A stretch of 45,167 bases of DNA, taken from contig JAHEFR010000021.1 in NCBI GenBank assembly GCA_024640085.1, positions 1 to 45,167 on the forward strand. The letters run 5' to 3'. How positions within the stretch are numbered: the first letter of the stretch is position 1; each line of letters opens with the position of its first letter. A program made the translations under genes and the position numbers. Positions 3,125 to 43,678 of the stretch are shown here, piece by piece. The notes under the pieces are model-generated. The model was not told the DNA's origin. It saw only the letters and a list, made by a program, of their open reading frames with translations, and searched no databases. This DNA comes from Gammaproteobacteria bacterium. Lineage in GTDB: Bacteria > Pseudomonadota > Gammaproteobacteria > Steroidobacterales > XN24.

Positions 3125-4960
3125 TTGCCTATCGCCCTCCCCGACGCCCACGGCATCGCCGTGCTGGGGCTCACCGTGCTGGCCCTGATCCTTTTCTCCA
3201 GGGACCGGATTCCGATGGAGACGTCGTGTCTCGTCATCCTGTCCCTGCTGGTCGTCGGCTTCCAGTTGTTCCCCTATACCCGGACCGGGGTCGAGATCAC
3301 GCCAAAGGATTTTTTCACCGGCTTCGGCCACGAGGCACTGGTCACGATCGTTTGCCTCATGGTCGCGGGCAAGGGTCTCGAAACTACAGGGGCGCTGCAG
3401 CCGCTGGCCATTATCATCGCCCGCGCCTGGGCGGCCAGGCCCAAACTCGCCCTCCTGGCCACGCTGATAGTCTGCGCCGTGTTGAGCGGGTTCCTGAACA
3501 ACACCCCCATCGTGATCATGCTGCTCCCGATCCTGATAACCGTCTCCCTGCGCAGCAGGATCTCGTCATCGGGGATCCTGCTTCCTATGGGATTGGCCAC
3601 GCTCATCGGCGGGATGGGGACAGCGATCGGGACATCCACCAATCTGCTGGTCGTGGCGGTTGCCGCCGATCTCGGAATGCGGCGCTTCGAGATGTTCGAT
3701 TTCACCCTCCCCGCCGTTATTGTCGGGTCAATGGGGGTCCTGTTTCTGTGGCTGATCGCGCCCCGGCTGTTGCCGGATCGCGAGCCCCCGATGGCCGACA
3801 CCTCGCCGCGGATTTTCAAGGCCATGTTCTACGTGAACAATGACAGCTTTGCATGCGGCAAGACCCTGGCGGAGGTCCGGGAGCGCACCGAGAAGCGGAT
3901 GACCATCGACCGCATCCAGAGAGCCGACGGCCTCTACGTGGCCAAGCTGCCCTCCATGATGTTCCAGGAGGGTGACCGGATGCTGGTCGCCGATACCCGG
4001 GAAAGGTTGAAGGAATTTGAGCGCCTGCTCGGCGTAACAATGCACGACGCCAGCGAACTCGAGGCCGGGGATGGAGAATTCCTGCCGTCGACGGGGGCAG
4101 ATCAGCAGCTCGCAGAAGTGGTGGTGACCACGGGGTCCCCTCTTCACCAGCGGACCCTGAACGCGACCCAGTTCCGGGCGCGGCACAAGTTGCTGCCCCT
4201 GGCTATCCACCGGGCACGCAGCGCGCCGGGGGAAGTCACCGGTGATTTCGAAGATGTCCTGCTCCGGGCCGGAGACGTGATTCTGGTCCAGGGCCCCCGG
4301 AACCAGATCACCGAACTCAAGCGCAGTGGCAACATGTTGGTGCTCGACGGCACCATGGATCTTCCGCACACGAGCCGCGCACCCCTGGCCCTGGGGATCA
4401 TGGGGACAGTGGTGGTGCTGGCGGGCACCGGAACCATCCCGATTTTCTCCGGGGCCGTCCTGGGCGCGACGGCCATGCTGCTCACTCGTTGCCTGAAATG
4501 GCGCGACGCGCTCTCCGCCATCACCCCATCCGTGGTTCTGATCATCGTCACCAGCCTTGCGTTGGGCCACGGGGTCATGAGCACCGGACTCGACGGCTTC
4601 CTGGCCTCGTTGTTCGTCCTGGCGACGACCGGGCTGTCGCCGACCTACATCATCAGCGCCCTGCTCATGACCTTCGCCATCATGACCAATGTGGTGTCGA
4701 ACAACGCAGCGGCAGTCATCGGCACGCCGGTGGCGATCAGTATCGCCCAGCAGCTGGGGCTCCCGCCGGAACCCCTGGTGCTGGCCGTACTGTTCGGGGC
4801 CAATATGAGTTACGCCACGCCCATCGGCTACCAGACCAACCTGCTGATCTTCAGCGCGGGCGGCTACAAGTTCTCCGATTTCCTGCGGGTAGGCATCCCC
4901 CTGACATTGCTCATGTGGGTCGGATTCACTTTTGTGCTGTCGGCCATCTACAACCTCTGA
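3125..4960 (+). CDS. SLC13-family (CitT/DASS-type) permease with two RCK_C domains
   Basis: Inner-membrane permease of the SLC13/divalent anion:Na+ symporter superfamily; the substrate (dicarboxylate, sulfate or another anion) cannot be told. The frame is open much further upstream, but a TTG at 3125 preceded by GAGGAGA (3114-3120) gives a normal N-terminus and 611 aa. N-terminal helices carry the first SNT-like motif (FLNNTPIVIMLLP at about 123, and GTAIGTSTNLLVV at about 165). Two soluble RCK_C/TrkA-C-like domains follow at about 214-290 and 312-400. The C-terminal half carries the second motif set (TNVVSNNAAAVIGTP at 511-525, and SYATPIGYQTNLLIF at 552-566). This layout is typical of bacterial SLC13 members with an RCK insert. 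It stands alone, divergent from ppc and upstream of the trp promoter. Confidence 0.88.
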   Translation: MPIALPDAHGIAVLGLTVLALILFSRDRIPMETSCLVILSLLVVGFQLFPYTRTGVEITPKDFFTGFGHEALVTIVCLMVAGKGLETTGALQPLAIIIARAWAARPKLALLATLIVCAVLSGFLNNTPIVIMLLPILITVSLRSRISSSGILLPMGLATLIGGMGTAIGTSTNLLVVAVAADLGMRRFEMFDFTLPAVIVGSMGVLFLWLIAPRLLPDREPPMADTSPRIFKAMFYVNNDSFACGKTLAEVRERTEKRMTIDRIQRADGLYVAKLPSMMFQEGDRMLVADTRERLKEFERLLGVTMHDASELEAGDGEFLPSTGADQQLAEVVVTTGSPLHQRTLNATQFRARHKLLPLAIHRARSAPGEVTGDFEDVLLRAGDVILVQGPRNQITELKRSGNMLVLDGTMDLPHTSRAPLALGIMGTVVVLAGTGTIPIFSGAVLGATAMLLTRCLKWRDALSAITPSVVLIIVTSLALGHGVMSTGLDGFLASLFVLATTGLSPTYIISALLMTFAIMTNVVSNNAAAVIGTPVAISIAQQLGLPPEPLVLAVLFGANMSYATPIGYQTNLLIFSAGGYKFSDFLRVGIPLTLLMWVGFTFVLSAIYNL

Positions 4961-5064
4961 GAATGGGGCTGGGCGACGTGGCCACGGGACCGAGGGCCTC
5001 TGCGCTGTGCGAGAGCCCGGGCCATGTTCACCGGTGAGACCGGGCGGCGGGTGCTGTTTCGGGG

Positions 5065-5092
5065 TTGACGGGTCGGGACCCGTGGATAAACT
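5065..5092 (+). promoter_or_regulatory. sigma-70-type promoter of the trp operon
   Basis: TTGACG (5065-5070) and TAAACT (5087-5092) are separated by 16 bases. Transcription would start around 5099-5101, which is essentially at the first base of the trpL start codon. A perfect inverted repeat occupies the spacer and is listed separately. The position fits the attenuator downstream. Confidence 0.65.
5068..5083. promoter_or_regulatory. candidate operator: perfect 7-bp inverted repeat inside the trp promoter
   Basis: ACGGGTC-GG-GACCCGT is a perfect dyad covering the last bases of the -35 hexamer and most of the spacer. A repressor bound here would block RNA polymerase. The sequence does not resemble the enterobacterial TrpR operator, so the binding protein is unknown. 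It is too far upstream to be part of the leader RNA if transcription starts near 5100. Confidence 0.45.
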
Positions 5093-5100
5093 TGCACCCG

Positions 5101-5181
5101 ATGATGAGATCCGACGACAGATTGCTTCGCCGCTGGCTGTGGTGGCCCGCCCTCCAGGAGAGGGTGCGGGCTCGCGGTTGA
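5101..5181 (+). CDS. trpL: trp leader peptide (attenuation control)
   Basis: A 26-codon ORF starts ATG ATG and carries three Trp codons in the run W-L-W-W at codons 12-15 (TGG at 5134, 5140 and 5143), followed by a TGA at 5179-5181. Competing RNA structures can be drawn. Segment 5145-5154 pairs with 5160-5171 (pause hairpin 1:2). Segment 5167-5174 can pair with 5205-5212 (7 of 8 bases, antiterminator 2:3). Segment 5207-5217 pairs with 5227-5237 (terminator 3:4). Ribosome stalling at the Trp codons would free segment 2 and allow trpE transcription. There is no Shine-Dalgarno sequence, and the predicted transcription start almost coincides with the ATG, so translation may be leaderless, as is known for rhizobial trpL. 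Confidence 0.82.
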   Translation: MMRSDDRLLRRWLWWPALQERVRARG

Positions 5182-5206
5182 TCGTCCGATCCAGCTGACA
5201 CGCACG

Positions 5207-5241
5207 AACCCGTCTCCACCGGCCCCGGGGACGGGTTTTTT
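5207..5241 (+). terminator. trp attenuator (Rho-independent terminator)
   Basis: AACCCGTC (5207-5214) pairs with GACGGGTT (5230-5237), extended inward by TCC/GGG to about 11 bp with a 9-base loop. A run of six T residues follows (5236-5241). It lies between the trpL stop codon and trpE and is the 3:4 terminator of the attenuator. Confidence 0.85.
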
Positions 5242-5283
5242 GATGGACCGCCCCCAGCCGGCCGAGGCTTAGGGAGGACGGAC

Positions 5284-6666
5284 ATGGAACCACCCTTCGA
5301 TATCGCCGCGGACCTGGATACTCCGGTCTCCGCCTGGCTCAAGCTGGCGTCCTTCCGCCCCCGCTTCCTGCTGGAGAGCGTCGAGGGCGGCGAGAGGCTG
5401 GCCCGCTATTCCTTCCTCGGTTTCGGGGACGCCCTGGAGATCCGGCTCGACGAGAAGGGCTTCCGGCTGGGCGCCGAGACTCTCCCGGTGCCGACGGATC
5501 AGGAGGAATTGCTGGCGGCGATGCGCCGGGCCCTGGAATCGTCCCCCGAACTGACCCCCGTATCGGACGCGCTGCCATTTCGCGGTGGCATGGTGGGTGC
5601 GGCTGCCTATGACATCGTGCGGCACTTCGAGCGTCTTCCGGGCGGGCCGGCCATCGAAGTGAGCACTCCACAGGCGGCGTGGGTGGCGCCGTCAAGCGTG
5701 CTGGTGTTCGATCATCTGACCCGACGCGCGGCTCTGCTGCACGCGGGCAGCGAAGCCGAGAGACAGGCGGTGAGGAGGGATGTGGTCCGTGCTCTCCAGG
5801 CAGGAATACCGGCCCGGCCGCGGGGCGGATTCTCGGAGCCTGTCACAAGTATGAGCCGGGAGCAGTACATGGAAGCGGTCCGGGCCGCGAAGGACCATAT
5901 CCGGGCTGGAGACGTCTATCAGCTGGTGCTTTCGACCTGTTTCTCGGGCACCTTCGGCCTCGCGCCCTTCGAAGCCTACCGGGCGCTCAGGCTGCTGAAC
6001 CCCTCCCCCTACATGTATTTCCTGCAGTTCGGCGATACGGCCATCGCGGGCTCGTCCCCCGAGGCCCTGGTCCGTCTCCATGGACGATCGGCCGCCCTCC
6101 GGCCCATCGCCGGCACGCGTCCCCGGGGCGCCACGCCTGACGAGGACCTGGCCCATGAGGCGGCGCTGCTGGCTGACCCAAAGGAAGCCGCCGAGCACGT
6201 AATGCTGGTGGATCTTGCCCGCAACGATCTGGGCCGGGTCGGGGTGCCGGGGAGCATACGCGTGGACCCGAGCCGTGCGATCGAGCGTTACAGTCACGTG
6301 ATGCATCTGGTCAGCGGCGTAATGGGCGAACTCGAGGCCGGCAGGGACGCCTTCGACCTGTTTGCGGCGACCTTTCCGGCAGGTACGCTGGTCGGCGCTC
6401 CAAAGGTCAAGGCCATGGAGCTGATCGATACTTACGAACCCACGCGGCGTGGATTCTATGCAGGCACCGTAGGGTATTTCGACAGGTCCGGTGGCATGGA
6501 TCAGGCTATCGCTATCCGGACCCTGGTGTTCGAGGGCGACCGGTACAGCTACCAGGCGGGGGCGGGAATCGTCGCTGACAGCATCCCCGAGAACGAACAC
6601 GCCGAAGTGATCGCCAAGAGCGCCATCCTAAGGAGAGCGCTGGAGATCGCCCGGGAGGGACTATGA
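5284..6666 (+). CDS. trpE: anthranilate synthase component I
   Basis: Chorismate-binding subunit of anthranilate synthase, using ammonia supplied by TrpG; first committed step of tryptophan synthesis. The 460 residues make it somewhat shorter than enterobacterial TrpE. The feedback-inhibition element is present near the N-terminus: LLES at 29-32 and RYSFLG at 41-46. The C-terminal chorismate domain has SSPEALVRLHG, PIAGTRPRGATPDED, MLVDLARNDLGRVG and FPAGTLVGAPKVKAMELID. Motifs and the coupled trpG favour TrpE over the paralogue PabB. A strong GGGAGGA ribosome-binding site precedes the ATG. It is the first structural gene after the attenuator and overlaps trpG by 4 bp. Confidence 0.95.
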   Translation: MEPPFDIAADLDTPVSAWLKLASFRPRFLLESVEGGERLARYSFLGFGDALEIRLDEKGFRLGAETLPVPTDQEELLAAMRRALESSPELTPVSDALPFRGGMVGAAAYDIVRHFERLPGGPAIEVSTPQAAWVAPSSVLVFDHLTRRAALLHAGSEAERQAVRRDVVRALQAGIPARPRGGFSEPVTSMSREQYMEAVRAAKDHIRAGDVYQLVLSTCFSGTFGLAPFEAYRALRLLNPSPYMYFLQFGDTAIAGSSPEALVRLHGRSAALRPIAGTRPRGATPDEDLAHEAALLADPKEAAEHVMLVDLARNDLGRVGVPGSIRVDPSRAIERYSHVMHLVSGVMGELEAGRDAFDLFAATFPAGTLVGAPKVKAMELIDTYEPTRRGFYAGTVGYFDRSGGMDQAIAIRTLVFEGDRYSYQAGAGIVADSIPENEHAEVIAKSAILRRALEIAREGL

Positions 6667-7280
6667 GCGCCCGGATCCTGCTGATCGACAATTACGACTC
6701 GTTTACTTTCAACCTGGTCCAGGGGTTCAGGATGCTCGGCGCCGACGTTCTCGTGTACCGGAATGACCGGATCAACGTGGGCGAGGCCGGGACCCTCGAG
6801 GCCACACACCTGGTCATTTCTCCAGGCCCGGGCAATCCGGGGGACGCGGGGGTGTCGGTCGAGGCCATCCGCGCGTTCGCAGACCGGATCCCGGTGCTGG
6901 GCGTCTGCCTTGGCCATCAGTCGATCGTCGCGGCCTTCGGCGGGACCATCGTGCCCGCCAGGCAGCTGATGCACGGCAAGACCTCCCTCATCCACCATGA
7001 CGCGAAGGGGGTGTTCGCCGGCCTCCCGGACCCACTGGAGGTCGGCCGGTATCACTCGCTGGCGGCGCGGCGGGAGGATCTTCCCGGGTGCCTGGCGGTT
7101 TCTGCCGAGACCGACGATGGAGAGATCATGGGCGTGCGCCATCGCCAGGCCAGGGTCGAAGGCGTCCAGTTCCATCCTGAAAGCGTGCTGACGCCGGCAG
7201 GGCAGTCGCTGCTCGGCAATTTCCTGCGCAGCGGGGCTGCTGTCGCGGAGACGGGGGGCGCCGATGCCATCTCTGCTTAA
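6663..7280 (+). CDS. trpG: anthranilate synthase component II (glutamine amidotransferase)
   Basis: Class I glutamine amidotransferase that hydrolyses glutamine and passes ammonia to TrpE. The 205-aa protein shows DNYDSFTFNLVQ at the N-terminus, the nucleophile Cys82 in GVCLGHQSI, and the His171/Glu173 pair in FHPES. It overlaps trpE by 4 bp and trpD by 17 bp, suggesting translational coupling and stoichiometric synthesis of the two subunits. In many bacteria such a protein also serves PabB; no pabB is present in this window. Confidence 0.94.
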   Translation: MSARILLIDNYDSFTFNLVQGFRMLGADVLVYRNDRINVGEAGTLEATHLVISPGPGNPGDAGVSVEAIRAFADRIPVLGVCLGHQSIVAAFGGTIVPARQLMHGKTSLIHHDAKGVFAGLPDPLEVGRYHSLAARREDLPGCLAVSAETDDGEIMGVRHRQARVEGVQFHPESVLTPAGQSLLGNFLRSGAAVAETGGADAISA

Positions 7281-8301
7281 CGACGTGCTGGAGATGCTGC
7301 TGTCCGGCGCTGACCTGGACGAGGGCCTGGCCGCCTCGACCCTGGATGCCCTGGCCGCGCCGGATTGTCCCCCGGCACTGGCCGGAGCCGTCCTGGCGGC
7401 TCTGCGCATGAAGGGCGAATCAGCCCCCGAAATCCGGGGGTTCGCCGGAGCGATGCGCGCCCTGGCGAGACGGCCGGATGATCCCGGCGTGCAGGGGGCG
7501 GCGGACATCGTCGGCACCGGAGGGGACGGCTCCGGCAGCCTCAACCTGTCCACCGGCGCCGCGCTGCTCGCGGCAGCTTGCGGGGTGCCCGTCATGAAGC
7601 ATGGAAATCGGTCGGTATCCAGTCGTAGCGGGAGCGCTGACGTGCTGGAGTGCCTCGGCATGCGGTTGCCCCTGGACGAGGGGGCCGCAGCCCGATGCCT
7701 CGTCGACACCGGCTTTTCGTTTCTGTTCGCGCCTTACTATCATCCAGCGATGAAATCGCTGGCCGCGGTCCGCGGCGCCATGGGAGTGAGGACCGTTTTC
7801 AACATTCTCGGCCCGCTCACCAACCCCGCGGCTCCGCCATTCGGGCTGATCGGCGCCTTCTCGCCGGAGATGGCCGAGTTGATGGCGGAATCACTGGCCG
7901 GTACGGACATCGAGCGGGCGTTCGTGGTCCACGGGGACCCGGGCTGGGACGAGGCCACCCCCGTGGGACCCTTCCTGCTGTTCGACGTCACGGCCGGAAG
8001 GGTCGAACGCACGGTCCGCGATCCCCTGGAGTGGGGCCTTCCCAGATGCGATCCGGAGACCCTGGCGGGTGGGGATTGCGAACACAACGCCGGGCGCATC
8101 AGGGCTGTTTTCGAGGGTCGCGAGGCGGGACCTCACCGCGACGCCCTGGTACTCGGAGCGGCCCTGGTGCTGGAATTGACGGGTCGTGTAAACAGTCCCA
8201 CGGACTCCGCAATAATGGCGGCCACGGCGCTGGACGACGGTGCCGCCGCCGGCGTGCTGGACCGAATCCGGGATTTCGGCGAATCGGAGGAATCCGGTTG
8301 A
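7264..8301 (+). CDS. trpD: anthranilate phosphoribosyltransferase
   Basis: Transfers phosphoribosyl from PRPP to anthranilate, the second step of the pathway. The 345-aa length is normal. The PRPP-binding signature GTGGDGSGSLNLST lies at residues 84-97, followed by KHGNRSVSSRSGSADVLE at 112-129. The start overlaps the end of trpG by 17 bp, and the TGA stop overlaps the TTG start of trpC. It is not fused to trpG, unlike in enteric bacteria. Confidence 0.95.
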   Translation: MPSLLNDVLEMLLSGADLDEGLAASTLDALAAPDCPPALAGAVLAALRMKGESAPEIRGFAGAMRALARRPDDPGVQGAADIVGTGGDGSGSLNLSTGAALLAAACGVPVMKHGNRSVSSRSGSADVLECLGMRLPLDEGAAARCLVDTGFSFLFAPYYHPAMKSLAAVRGAMGVRTVFNILGPLTNPAAPPFGLIGAFSPEMAELMAESLAGTDIERAFVVHGDPGWDEATPVGPFLLFDVTAGRVERTVRDPLEWGLPRCDPETLAGGDCEHNAGRIRAVFEGREAGPHRDALVLGAALVLELTGRVNSPTDSAIMAATALDDGAAAGVLDRIRDFGESEESG

Positions 8302-9137
8302 GGCTGGCGGACGACTTCCTCGCCGGCATGGCCCGCGCATCGGAGACGCGGGCGCAGGCATTGGTCGCCGGCGCCGGGGAACTCGAACACAGAGCCCGGA
8401 CGGCTCCTGCGCCTCCCCGCCTCCGTCTGGCGGATGGGGGCTTCGACGTCATCGCGGAGATCAAGATGAGTTCCCCGTCGGCCGGGACCTTGTCTGCCGA
8501 CGATACTGCCATCGAGGCGCGGGCCAGGGACTACGCGGGCGCAGGCGCCTGCGCGGTCTCGGTGCTGACGGAGCCGGAGCGCTTCGGCGGCGACATCGAG
8601 CACTTGCGGCGGGTCGCCAGCGCCCTGGAGCCGCTTGACGTTCCGGCCATGGCCAAGGACTTTCTGGTCGCGCCCGAACAGCTGTTCGCGGCCCGGATCG
8701 CCGGCGCTGGAGGCGCGTTGCTGATCGTCCGGATGCTGGACGACCCCCGCCTCGACGAGATGCTGGATGCCGCCCTGGGTCTCGGCCTGTTCGTGCTGCT
8801 GGAAGCCTTCGATGCCGAGGACCTGGATCGGGCGGCGAGCATCGTCGGCCACCGGGCGGACGCTCCGGCCCAGGTGCTGCTGGGCCTGAACTGTCGTGAC
8901 CTCAGGACCCTGAGAGTGGACCCGTCCCGTTTCGGCATCCTTTCGGGCCACTTCATGACCGGCCTGCCCAGCGTCGCTGAAAGCGGCATCGAGAGCCCCC
9001 GCGACGCCGCGCACGTATCTTCCCTAGGCTATTCCGTGGCCCTGGTCGGCACGGCGCTGATGAAGACCCCTGACCCCGGCGCCCTGCTTGCCCGGATGAT
9101 CGCCCAAGGCCGGGAGGCCAGACAGACCGGATCATGA
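8298..9137 (+). CDS. trpC: indole-3-glycerol phosphate synthase
   Basis: Ring-closing decarboxylation of CdRP to indole-3-glycerol phosphate on a TIM barrel. The frame is open much further upstream, through trpD in another frame. The start is placed at TTG 8298, which overlaps the trpD stop (TTGA) and is preceded by GGAGGA at 8286-8291; this gives 279 aa. Signatures are IAEIKMSSPSAG (Lys56), AKDFLV (Lys120), LNCRDLRTLRVD and VAESGI. The protein is monofunctional, with trpF as a separate gene downstream (4-bp overlap). The rare start codon may lower its translation relative to its neighbours. Confidence 0.93.
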   Translation: MRLADDFLAGMARASETRAQALVAGAGELEHRARTAPAPPRLRLADGGFDVIAEIKMSSPSAGTLSADDTAIEARARDYAGAGACAVSVLTEPERFGGDIEHLRRVASALEPLDVPAMAKDFLVAPEQLFAARIAGAGGALLIVRMLDDPRLDEMLDAALGLGLFVLLEAFDAEDLDRAASIVGHRADAPAQVLLGLNCRDLRTLRVDPSRFGILSGHFMTGLPSVAESGIESPRDAAHVSSLGYSVALVGTALMKTPDPGALLARMIAQGREARQTGS

Positions 9138-9751
9138 GCACGCTGATCAAGATATGCGGACTGACGTCGTCTGACGCCGTGGAGGCGGCCGTGGAGGCCG
9201 GCGCGGATGCCATCGGGTTCGTTTTCGCCGAATCGGCCCGACGGGTCAGCCCGGCCACGGCCGGGCGCCTGGCGGCCGGCGTGCCACCGGGCACGGTTAA
9301 GATCGCGGTCATGCGGCATCCATCCCAGGACGACGTGGACCGGGTGATGGACCATCTGGAGCCGGAGTTTCTGCAGACCGACGCCGAGGATTACGATCAG
9401 ATCACGCTGGTCGGCACATGCCGTCCATTGCCGGTGTATCGGGCCGGACGTTCCCTGCCCGACCGGTTGCCCCGCCTGATGCTCTTCGAAGGCCCGCTGA
9501 GCGGGAGCGGCGAGGTGGCCGACTGGGAGGAAGCCCGCAAGCTTGCCCTGGAGACCCGCGTCGTCCTGGCCGGCGGTCTCAAGCCCGAAAACGTCGAGGC
9601 GGCCATGCGAACGGTCCGACCCTATGGCGTCGATGTGAGTTCGGGCGTGGAGAGCGCGCCGGGAGTGAAGTCCGCCAGACTGATCCGGAGCTTTATCGAG
9701 GCCGTGCACCAGGCGGACAGCAGGCTGGATTCCATTGGAGATGATTCATGA
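9134..9751 (+). CDS. trpF: phosphoribosylanthranilate isomerase
   Basis: Amadori rearrangement of PRA to CdRP. The 205-aa TIM barrel starts with IKICGLTSSDAVEAA, containing the catalytic Cys8. Near the C-terminus it has GVDVSSGVESAPGVKS, where a phosphate-binding loop and the catalytic Asp are expected. It overlaps trpC and trpB by 4 bp each. Free-standing TrpF between trpC and trpB is common outside the enteric bacteria. Confidence 0.93.
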   Translation: MSTLIKICGLTSSDAVEAAVEAGADAIGFVFAESARRVSPATAGRLAAGVPPGTVKIAVMRHPSQDDVDRVMDHLEPEFLQTDAEDYDQITLVGTCRPLPVYRAGRSLPDRLPRLMLFEGPLSGSGEVADWEEARKLALETRVVLAGGLKPENVEAAMRTVRPYGVDVSSGVESAPGVKSARLIRSFIEAVHQADSRLDSIGDDS

Positions 9752-10998
9752 CGACGCCCGCGATGCCTACCGAGAGCCCCGACGAACTCCTGCGGGCGCT
9801 GATAGACGGACGATTGCCGGATACTCGGGGACGCTTCGGTCCTTTCGGCGGGCGCTACGTGCCCGAGACCCTGGTTCCTGCTCTGGACCGACTGCAGGCG
9901 GGGATCGAGGCCCATCTCCACGAGCCAGGCTTCCAGGCTTGTCTCGGGGCCGAACTGCGCGACTGGGCAGGCAGGCCGACGGCGCTGACGCCGGCGCCGG
10001 CCCTGGGGCGGGCATGGGGGGGCGAGGTCTGGCTCAAGCGCGAAGACCTGGCCCACACGGGAGCCCACAAGATCAACAACGCTCTCGGCCAGGCGATGCT
10101 GGCGCGCCTGATCGGGGCCCGGCGCATCGTGGCGGAGACCGGAGCGGGTCAGCACGGAGTAGCGTCCGCGGCGGCCTGCGCGCGGGTCGGACTGCCCTGC
10201 GTGGTCTACATGGGCTCCGTCGACATCGAGCGACAGGCGCCCAACGTGGACAGGATGAAGCGACTGGGGGCCGAGGTGGTGCCGGTGACCTCGGGCGACA
10301 AGACGCTCCGGGCTGCCATCGACGAGGCATTGCGAGACTGGGTTTCCGACCCCGTGAACACCTACTACCTCCTCGGTTCGGCGGTAGGGCCCCACCCATA
10401 CCCTTATCTGGTGCGCGAGTTTCAGTCTGTCATCGGACGGGAGGCCCGCAGCCAGATCCTTGAGCGGACCGGCGTCCTGCCCGACGCTATCGTTGCGTGC
10501 GTCGGCGGCGGCTCGAATTCCATCGGGCTGTTCCACGAGTTCCTCGCCGACCAGGAGGTGGAGATTATCGGCATCGAGGCGGGCGGCAAAGGCACGGGGC
10601 TTGGTGACAATTCAGCGACCCTGAGCTCTGGCAGGCCCGGAGTGCTCCACGGCAGCTATTCCATGCTGCTCCACGACCGGGACGGCCAGGTGCAGGAGAC
10701 CCATTCGATCTCCGCCGGTCTGGATTATCCTGGCGTCGGGCCGGAGCATTCGTTGCTGGCCTCAATCGGCCGGGTGAGTTACCGGACGGCTTCCGATGAC
10801 GAGGCCCTGGAGGCACTGGACGAGTGTGCCGCCCTGGAAGGCATCCTCCCCGCGCTGGAGACGGCCCACGCATTCGCCGGGGCCCGGCACTGGACGCGGG
10901 ATAACCCGGGCGGACGCGTATTGATCGGGTTGTCCGGTCGCGGCGACAAGGACATGCCGACGCTCTCCCGGCACCCCCCGCGGGGGACGGGGACATGA
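9748..10998 (+). CDS. trpB: tryptophan synthase beta chain
   Basis: PLP-dependent condensation of indole with serine, in the alpha2beta2 complex with TrpA. The 416-aa protein has FGPFGGRYVPETL near the N-terminus, the PLP lysine K108 in HTGAHKINNALGQAM, ETGAGQHGVASA, and the PLP-phosphate loop CVGGGSNSIGLFHEF. It is a TrpB1-type enzyme coupled to trpA by a 4-bp overlap. The N-terminus carries roughly 20 more residues than the shortest family members; no downstream start looked better. Confidence 0.96.
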   Translation: MTTPAMPTESPDELLRALIDGRLPDTRGRFGPFGGRYVPETLVPALDRLQAGIEAHLHEPGFQACLGAELRDWAGRPTALTPAPALGRAWGGEVWLKREDLAHTGAHKINNALGQAMLARLIGARRIVAETGAGQHGVASAAACARVGLPCVVYMGSVDIERQAPNVDRMKRLGAEVVPVTSGDKTLRAAIDEALRDWVSDPVNTYYLLGSAVGPHPYPYLVREFQSVIGREARSQILERTGVLPDAIVACVGGGSNSIGLFHEFLADQEVEIIGIEAGGKGTGLGDNSATLSSGRPGVLHGSYSMLLHDRDGQVQETHSISAGLDYPGVGPEHSLLASIGRVSYRTASDDEALEALDECAALEGILPALETAHAFAGARHWTRDNPGGRVLIGLSGRGDKDMPTLSRHPPRGTGT

Positions 10999-11774
10999 AT
11001 GGCGGGGACCGGATAGAGGCGGCCATCAGGGCCGCTCGCCGCGAGGGTCGAACGGCCCTGGTCGCATACATCACCGCTGGTTACCCGGAGAAGGAAGCGT
11101 TCCGCAAGGACCTGGCGCGGGTGGCCTCCGCCGCCGACGTGGTCGAGGTCGGCGTCCCGTTCACCGACCCTATGGCTGACGGTCTGACCATCCAGCGCGC
11201 CTCCCATGCGGCCATCCAGGCCGGCGTTACCCTGCGATGGATATTGCGGGAGATCGAGTCCATGGATCCGCCGATTACAGCGCCAGTGGTGCTCATGAGT
11301 TACTTGAATCCGCTGCTGGCCCTCGGCTACGACGAATTGGCGGGAAGATCGGAGGCCGCCGGGGTGGCCGGATTCATCGTCCCCGACCTGCCCCTGGACG
11401 AGAGTGCGGGGCTTGACGAGGCGCTGGCGGACAGGGGCCTGGCGCTGGTGCAACTGGTTTCGCCGGTAACCTCGGAGGAACGCCTGGCGGCGGCCGGCAA
11501 GGCCAGCCGCGGGTTCCTCTATGCGGTCACGGTCACCGGGATCACCGGCGGCGACGCGGACAGGGGCGGCGACATCGCCGGATACCTGCAGCGGGTTGTG
11601 GCGCATTCGAAAGTGCCCGTCTGTGCCGGGTTCGGCGTCCGCACCCGGGAGCAGGTGACAAACATCGGCGCTCATGTCCCCGGGGTCGTGGTGGGCTCCG
11701 CGCTCGTGGAGACCCTGGAACGCGGAGAGGATCCGGTGGCGTTCCTGAATTCCCTGTCAGGCAGGACGGCGTGA
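10995..11774 (+). CDS. trpA: tryptophan synthase alpha chain
   Basis: Cleaves indole-3-glycerol phosphate and channels indole to TrpB. The 259 residues carry the active-site pair Glu51 and Asp62, spaced exactly as in the E. coli enzyme, within DVVEVGVPFTDPMADG. After the signature the sequence reads LTIQRASHAAIQ, where PVIQ is more usual. It is the last gene of the seven-gene trp run. No clear Rho-independent terminator follows before mscL. Confidence 0.94.
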   Translation: MNGGDRIEAAIRAARREGRTALVAYITAGYPEKEAFRKDLARVASAADVVEVGVPFTDPMADGLTIQRASHAAIQAGVTLRWILREIESMDPPITAPVVLMSYLNPLLALGYDELAGRSEAAGVAGFIVPDLPLDESAGLDEALADRGLALVQLVSPVTSEERLAAAGKASRGFLYAVTVTGITGGDADRGGDIAGYLQRVVAHSKVPVCAGFGVRTREQVTNIGAHVPGVVVGSALVETLERGEDPVAFLNSLSGRTA

Positions 11775-11915
11775 CAAGACACCAGAGGGAATTGCATTTA
11801 TCTTTGTCGTAGAGCCGGGCCGACATCTGCCTGGGAATGGGCAACAAGCGATGGGGCAGGGCTGCGAGAACAATGGCCCTCGAAAAAACCGGGGCACAAG
11901 GGAGGGAGACAAGCA

Positions 11916-12320
11916 ATGGGAATGATGCAGGAATTCAAATCCTTCGCCATGCGTGGGAACGTGATCGACATGGCGGTCGGTATCATCATCGGCGGCGCGT
12001 TCGGCAAAATCGTCTCGTCGTTCGTCAACGACGTCATCATGCCGCCGATTGGCCTGATCGTCGGCGGCGTGGATTTCGCCGACCTGGCAGTCACGCTCAA
12101 GGACGCGACCGGAGACGCGCCCGCCGTCATGTTGAAGTACGGCGCCTTCATCCAGACGGCCGTGGACTTCACCATCATCGCCTTCGCGATCTTCATCGCG
12201 ATCAAGGGCGTGAATTCGTTGAAGAAGAAGGAGGAGGCAAAGCCGGCCGCGCCACCGGCGCCGTCCAAGGAAGAAGTGCTGTTGACCGAGATCCGGGATC
12301 TCCTCAAAGAGCGCAGGTGA
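11916..12320 (+). CDS. mscL: large-conductance mechanosensitive channel MscL
   Basis: Homopentameric inner-membrane channel that opens under extreme membrane tension and protects against hypo-osmotic lysis. At 134 aa it has the normal length. It has the N-terminal amphipathic helix ([12 protein letters not shown]), the pore-lining TM1 ([20 protein letters not shown]), a periplasmic loop, TM2 ([17 protein letters not shown]), and a charged C-terminal bundle helix ([14 protein letters not shown]). A strong GGGAGG ribosome-binding site precedes the ATG. The 141-base gap after trpA suggests its own promoter, but none was clear. Confidence 0.95.

Positions 12321-43604: not shown

Positions 43605-43678
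<74 letters not shown>

Follow-up and report, generated by a model that had tools for sequence, protein, structure and literature searches.

The tryptophan operon in the window, a 45,167-nucleotide stretch of gammaproteobacterial DNA that is contig 7 of a 3.19-Mb assembly (95.8% complete), is very probably governed by a ribosome-mediated transcription attenuator placed before trpEGDCFBA, with its leader peptide read from a predicted leaderless mRNA (Table 1). Leaderlessness of trpL is strongly predicted from promoter spacing, with positive and negative controls. Judged from genome sequences, the layout is the rule in the order to which this genome belongs and not a peculiarity of one genome; because it recurs throughout the order, it was probably inherited and did not arise as an accident of a single genome.

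The trp promoter is sigma-70-like, with a 16-nt spacer between TTGACG and TAAACT, and its −35-to-ATG distance is 36 nt. The preliminary description had placed the end of the −10 box at 5092 and the trpL ATG at 5101 with no Shine-Dalgarno sequence between them, and had read Trp-Leu-Trp-Trp at codons 12-15. These coordinates were confirmed on the window sequence, where no Shine-Dalgarno-like run was found from the −10 box to the ATG, and translation confirmed the motif: the peptide is MMRSDDRLLRRWLWWPALQERVRARG, with Trp at codons 12, 14 and 15 and a TGA stop at 5179-5181. A start well upstream had been named as the finding that would count against leaderlessness; the stretch 4800-5500 holds a single promoter-like site (1 found vs 0.1 in shuffles), and no other TTGAC offset recurs more than three times in the relatives' regions. 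Over 5020-12000 there are three promoter-like sites (vs 0.6 in shuffles), the other two inside the operon. Two in-frame ATGs stand in tandem at the predicted 5′ end (5101-5106, the second at 5104), and trpL also starts with Met-Met in relatives G001, G035, G029, G102, G037 and G028.

The full seven-gene operon claimed in the preliminary description is present after trpL, with trpEGDCFBA at 5284-11774. Overlaps of four bases join trpE/G, trpC/F, trpF/B, trpB/A and, with the presumed trpC start, trpD/C; the trpG/D overlap is 17 bases. That trpC start is a TTG overlapping the trpD stop, and the ORF list has a longer frame from 7650. Relatives found with TrpE that carry names include gammaproteobacterial MAGs, Thioalkalivibrio sp. 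XN8 and a Woeseiaceae MAG (Woeseiaceae belong to the Gammaproteobacteria in NCBI taxonomy), and some other labels are doubtful. Elsewhere in the window, a tRNA gene lies at 43605-43678 (Rfam RF00005, 71 bits).

Table 1. Features of the trp leader and operon in the window
Feature	Position	Strand	Basis
−35 hexamer TTGACG of trp promoter	5065..5070	+	TTGAC conserved in the order at 35-39 nt from trpL start
−10 hexamer TAAACT	5087..5092	+	ends 8 nt before ATG
Predicted transcription start, at the A of ATG or 0-2 nt before	5099..5101	+	−10 spacing
trpL, 26-codon leader peptide ORF, probably leaderless	5101..5181	+	ORF reading and frame test in relatives
Control codons Trp-Leu-Trp-Trp (codons 12-15)	5134..5145	+	trpL translation
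Segment 1 (protector arm)	5145..5154	+	MFE; weakly supported across relatives
Segment 2; GGAGAGGGU at 5157-5165 is the antiterminator arm	5157..5171	+	duplex energy and covariation
Segment 3, GAACCCGUCUCC, common to antiterminator and terminator	5206..5217	+	MFE, duplex, covariation
Segment 4, 3′ arm of terminator	5227..5238	+	MFE and covariation
T-tract of intrinsic terminator, T6	5236..5241	+	sequence reading
Shine-Dalgarno-like AGGGAGG of trpE	5271..5277	+	sequence reading
trpE	5284..6666	+	best match TIGR00564, 466.9 bits, below curated cut-off 517.7
trpG	6663..7280	+	TIGR00566 above cut-off
trpD	7264..8301	+	TIGR01245 above cut-off
trpC	8298..9137	+	best matches below their cut-offs
trpF	9134..9751	+	best matches below their cut-offs
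trpB	9748..10998	+	TIGR00263 above cut-off
trpA	10995..11774	+	TIGR00262 above cut-off

Among 147 genomes of the order searched with TrpE, 135 matched, and the region upstream of trpE was read in 130 (G024, G057, G060 and G134, partial or at a contig edge, and G075 were omitted); families f8 and f14 gave no TrpE match. A rule blind to the promoter found an ORF with a Trp cluster in 116 of the 130 regions. The 14 outside the rule are eight members of family f12 (L203-L206, L208-L211), in which no trpL was found upstream and TrpE is different (47-48% identity), G011, in which no leader was seen upstream of trpE, four genomes with a reduced Trp cluster (G005, G094, G115, G142) and G133, in which trpL is present on re-reading. 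The counted set of 114 is the 116 minus two genomes with mis-picked starts (G117 and G021, both of which give 36 nt by manual reading), and four starts in it were re-picked by promoter distance.

With starts picked without promoter information, TTGAC stood 35-39 nt upstream in 105/116; in the counted set it did so in 109/114, a count that overstates the number of independent events, the relatives sharing ancestry. This spacing occurs in every counted genome of 12 families and in 16 of 21 in f11, where the remaining five have TTGTAT at 35-37 nt. The remaining ATG and GTG codons of these regions served as a control: 7 of 1519 have TTGAC at 35-39 nt, and two of those seven come from the dropped genomes. 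The distance from the −10 box to the start is 6-10 nt with a mode of 7 (101/130 passing a consensus filter), and mostly 10 nt in family f13. The base before the trpL start codon is C or T in 95/114, which fits a +1 at the A of the ATG, and Shine-Dalgarno-like 4-mers occur upstream of trpL in 9/114 vs 47/114 upstream of trpE. Leaderless-type trpL is thus spread over 13 families (f1-f7, f9-f11, f13, f15, f16). A genome-wide search for further leaderless promoters of the order's consensus (TTGAC, ATACT, ATG) gave no match in the window genome, whose own −10 box is TAAACT, so that this search is uninformative. GTG starts also occur at the leaderless distance, in f16 (L126, L144, L178 and L145, at 36, 36, 35 and 36 nt) and in f15 (L168 at 36 nt); L151 (G142, also f15) has a GTG start in a frame read by eye. 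Such 5′-GUG leaderless starts are described as inefficient in E. coli in passages of PMC9031893.

The promoter distance could be compared with leaders of both kinds. The leadered trpL of E. coli K-12, a negative control, has a −35-to-ATG distance of 62 nt. As a positive control, TTG lies 36-37 nt before trpL in 13/13 fused trpE(G) loci, which a TIGR01815 search of 200 genomes of the phylum had identified; this control is weaker than the main count, with TTGA in three only and ambiguous starts chosen by eye. The known leaderless trpL of Sinorhizobium meliloti is of this fused-gene kind, and the gene fusion and the peptide suggest that the 13 are akin to it.

Translation of trpL is indicated by its reading frame. 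In a frame test, the ATG was fixed by its distance from TTGAC alone and from four codons onward the first occurrence of TGGTGG or TGGnnnTGG was taken; one or other element was absent in 16 of the 122 regions outside f12. All 106 regions that could be tested have the Trp cluster in the frame of the promoter-defined ATG, although the first Trp codon falls at 11 different positions from codon 8 to codon 19. Unless that ATG is used for translation, an in-frame cluster of this kind would be difficult to account for. The Trp codons and reading frame are therefore kept among relatives (106/106 in frame), which the preliminary description had made a touchstone of its proposal. The trpL of the 114 counted relatives, a set chosen for its Trp cluster, has two to four Trp; across relatives the peptide is 14-30 codons long and its sequence is variable outside the Trp codons.

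The preliminary description had held that 1:2, 2:3 and 3:4 RNA pairings can all be drawn in the leader; compensatory change in relatives upholds 3:4 and 2:3, and 1:2 weakly. The whole leader folds at −65.4 kcal/mol (z −2.2; 3/200 shuffles equally good). The terminator hairpin (5206-5217/5227-5238) is GC-rich and is followed by six Ts. In alignment A1 (104 leaders out of 108 with a T-run, G117, G092, G066 and G135 being excluded), 95.2% of terminator cells are paired, two-sided change occurs at 8/11 pairs, and two-sided cells number 63 vs 13.3 in shuffles; the 3:4 pairing is in this comparative sense shown. The best duplex of the stretch from the Trp codons to the terminator with segment 3 has −17.2 kcal/mol and includes the 2:3 pairing, 5157-5165 with 5208-5217 and G5212 bulged. 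In A1, 86.5% of antiterminator cells are paired, with 48 two-sided cells vs 20.8 in shuffles; the number of 2:3 pairs with two-sided change is not above shuffles (5 vs 4.4; 228/500). In an alignment-free comparison, pairing between segments 2 and 3 of the same leader exceeds the mean for other families in 82/104 and beats single-base shuffles in 103/104. An antiterminator that would exclude the terminator through the common segment 3 is thus well supported. The 1:2 protector, which in the MFE pairs 5145-5154 with 5160-5163 and 5166-5171, is plausible; across relatives it is slightly better than shuffles (mean z −0.78; 43/104 below −1).

A T-run with hairpin occurs in 108/116 leaders of relatives, the other eight having no run of four Ts. 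Four of these eight belong to the window's own family, the T-tract being interrupted in G002 and G003 and absent from G004 and G006, so close relatives of the window genome may have weak attenuation or have lost it. Within genus g4, attenuators appear to have decayed by different routes: L006, the same place as L011 of Thioalkalivibrio sp. XN8, and L007 are without a T-tract, and L008 keeps the terminator with one Trp codon left. By eye, L186 and L189 (f6) and L151 (f15) likewise have one remaining Trp codon in trpL, with promoter and terminator kept. The window leader had no Rfam match at gathering score, and relaxing the threshold to E 10 over 4961-5300 gave none either; this includes Trp_leader, the family with the same function.

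The regulatory behaviour of the leader can be proposed by analogy with E. coli trp attenuation. RNA polymerase would begin transcription at the trpL AUG or no more than about two bases from it, and the nascent RNA would be bound by a ribosome at its 5′-terminal AUG, with no Shine-Dalgarno sequence involved. When charged tRNA-Trp is scarce, the ribosome would stall at codons 12-15 and cover segment 1, leaving segment 2 to pair with segment 3, so that the terminator would be blocked and trpE-A transcribed. When Trp is plentiful, the ribosome would continue to the stop codon at 5179, which lies 14 nt beyond the antiterminator arm, and mask segment 2, and the 3:4 terminator would end transcription after about 141 nt. 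The geometry, with a ribosome stalled at codons 14-15 covering segment 1 and one at the stop covering segment 2, is likewise what the sequence and the E. coli precedent suggest.

A conventional trpL, with RNA starting tens of bases upstream at another promoter and carrying an unrecognised ribosome-binding site, is very unlikely. A single genome could not exclude it, and consensus matches are not proof of function, but the spacing is fixed at 35-39 nt in 109/114 leaders and matches the fused trpE(G) leaders (36-37), not E. coli (62); a second promoter-like site was not found in 4800-5500, and the rarity of Shine-Dalgarno-like 4-mers (9/114) speaks the same way. Harder to set aside is a 5′ end 2-5 nt upstream of the AUG, or initiation at the second AUG (5104), in which case initiation would not be strictly 5′-terminal. 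The window's −10 box matches the consensus at only 4/6 positions, its 8 nt to the ATG permit a leader of 1-2 nt, the distance is 10 nt in most of f13, and several leaders begin with two Met codons. However, the mode of 7 nt from −10 box to start and the pyrimidine before the start in 95/114 favour +1 at the A. We judge a start a few bases upstream, or at the second AUG, unlikely though by no means negligible; it overlaps our preferred explanation and would leave the attenuator reading intact. In E. coli, leaderless translation is generally less efficient than Shine-Dalgarno-led translation.

It is also scarcely probable that the attenuator mainly yields a small trans-acting RNA or peptide, like rnTrpL and peTrpL of S. 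meliloti, with cis control secondary. The architecture is the same as that of rnTrpL, which starts with the trpL AUG according to passages of PMC7298713 and PMC10117765; yet peptide length (14-30 codons) and the non-Trp sequence vary among relatives, which argues against a conserved peptide function. The reading that we prefer remains a cis-acting, ribosome-mediated attenuator with a leaderless trpL.

Other control of the promoter was also considered. The single TrpR-family protein in the window genome (G000:C55:15300-15548, L319) is of the YerC/YecD type by NCBIfam (73.5 bits, cut-off 42.2), and its identity as TrpR was rejected (25.4 bits vs cut-off 67.25). Pfam Trp_repressor matches 47/59 genomes of the order, the NCBIfam typing covering the window genome's match only. 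By eye, no conserved operator was seen in the promoter spacer of the order's leaders. Since no TrpR equivalog was found, and since rhizobial trpLE(G) is not under transcription repression according to passages of PMC7298713, attenuation may be the sole Trp-specific control at the trp promoter of the window genome.

Leaders outside the order were surveyed in three ways. A covariance model of the leader, run against 369 genomes of the class, matched 61 at E 0.001 or better, five of them in the order; 25 of the 30 loci listed lie outside it, and 18 were inspected, their genes being named by eye. Two of the 18 are Trp leaders, L297, with no TTGA within 75 nt, and L298, which is leaderless-type. 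Eleven look like chance terminators or coding ends. The inspection also turned up, by eye, Val-rich leader peptides and terminators before acetolactate-synthase-like genes (L294, L296, L303, L307) and an Ile/Val-containing ORF before a KARI-like gene (L302). L298 is in the same genome as L329 (G784), from another order of the class; its trpL, MKTQFINQTWWWQ..., has TTGACT 37 nt upstream and precedes an enteric-type TrpE, and its leaderless layout is apparently of separate origin. A survey of 67 of the 164 matching class genomes, with seven from other classes, gave a Trp ORF with terminator in 3/74 upstream regions, none with TTGA at 35-39 nt. In L239 a −10 box stands 6 nt before a Trp ORF, so that this locus may be leaderless, but a terminator was not found there; in L217 and L235 the −10 box lies 26-27 nt before the Trp ORF. 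Among eleven enteric-type TrpE loci (eight above the family cut-off), one, L329, is leaderless-type; L323 and L324 have Trp leaders without TTGA at 35-39 nt, L324 having one at 29, and at the others a Trp leader with terminator was not found. Outside the order these surveys thus gave one clear further leaderless-type case, G784, with L239 possible.

Like the window, E. coli has a leader ORF with Trp codons and an intrinsic terminator before trpE, and its attenuator works through competing antiterminator and terminator hairpins, as predicted for the window leader. The trpL of E. coli, by contrast, follows a 5′ leader (−35 to ATG 62 nt vs 36 nt in the window), and E. coli also has TrpR, where only a YerC-type relative was found in the window genome. 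The leaderless trpL of S. meliloti is also a Trp attenuator, and the 13 fused-trpE(G) genomes share the −35-to-AUG distance (36-37 nt). That species is an alphaproteobacterium with fused trpE(G), a 14-codon peptide and trpDC on a separate transcript, whereas the window has a separate trpE in a seven-gene operon, belongs to another class and encodes 26 codons. The AUG of S. meliloti trpL/rnTrpL was placed at the RNA 5′ end by experiment, as passages of PMC7298713 and PMC10117765 report. Passages of PMC8079986 describe Streptomyces lividans LeuL, MetL and ThrL as short leaderless ORFs for which sensing of an amino acid has been proposed or demonstrated, and mycobacterial poly-Cys ORFs, also leaderless, are cited for amino-acid sensing in PMC9031893. 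These actinobacterial leaders differ from the window in amino acid and phylum, and several are without a clear intrinsic terminator in the passages of both papers.

A gammaproteobacterial leaderless trp leader was not reported in the best-matching open-access literature, among which the rhizobial and actinobacterial cases were found. Passages of a Salmonella transcriptome study give 33 leaderless genes and do not name trpL (PMC3293720), and those on Campylobacter TrpL do not state leaderlessness (PMC3847290). Attenuation and the rhizobial leaderless trpL are thus known, and what is new is this lineage, with a full operon. A leaderless trp attenuator may moreover be a common regulatory design in nature, because the relatives include a Woeseiaceae MAG and Woeseiales contribute 1-22% of the 16S sequences retrieved from marine sediments, according to the abstract of PMC7082342.

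It is possible, and we put it forward tentatively, that in this order the attenuator includes leaderless initiation as a selected feature, kept since the common ancestor of the 13 sampled families, independent of the rhizobia and working even with 5′-GUG (f16 and two f15 genomes). If so, ribosomes would bind the 5′ AUG once it is out of RNA polymerase, with no Shine-Dalgarno-dependent lag; the RNA released, about 141 nt long, could also have a trans function like that in S. meliloti. The textbook trp attenuator, that of E. coli, is gammaproteobacterial and leadered, so that an order of the same class with a predicted leaderless version throughout offers a natural comparison, bearing on the timing of 5′-terminal AUG initiation relative to RNA polymerase and on why attenuators have repeatedly adopted leaderless leaders, in rhizobia, in actinobacteria and in this order.
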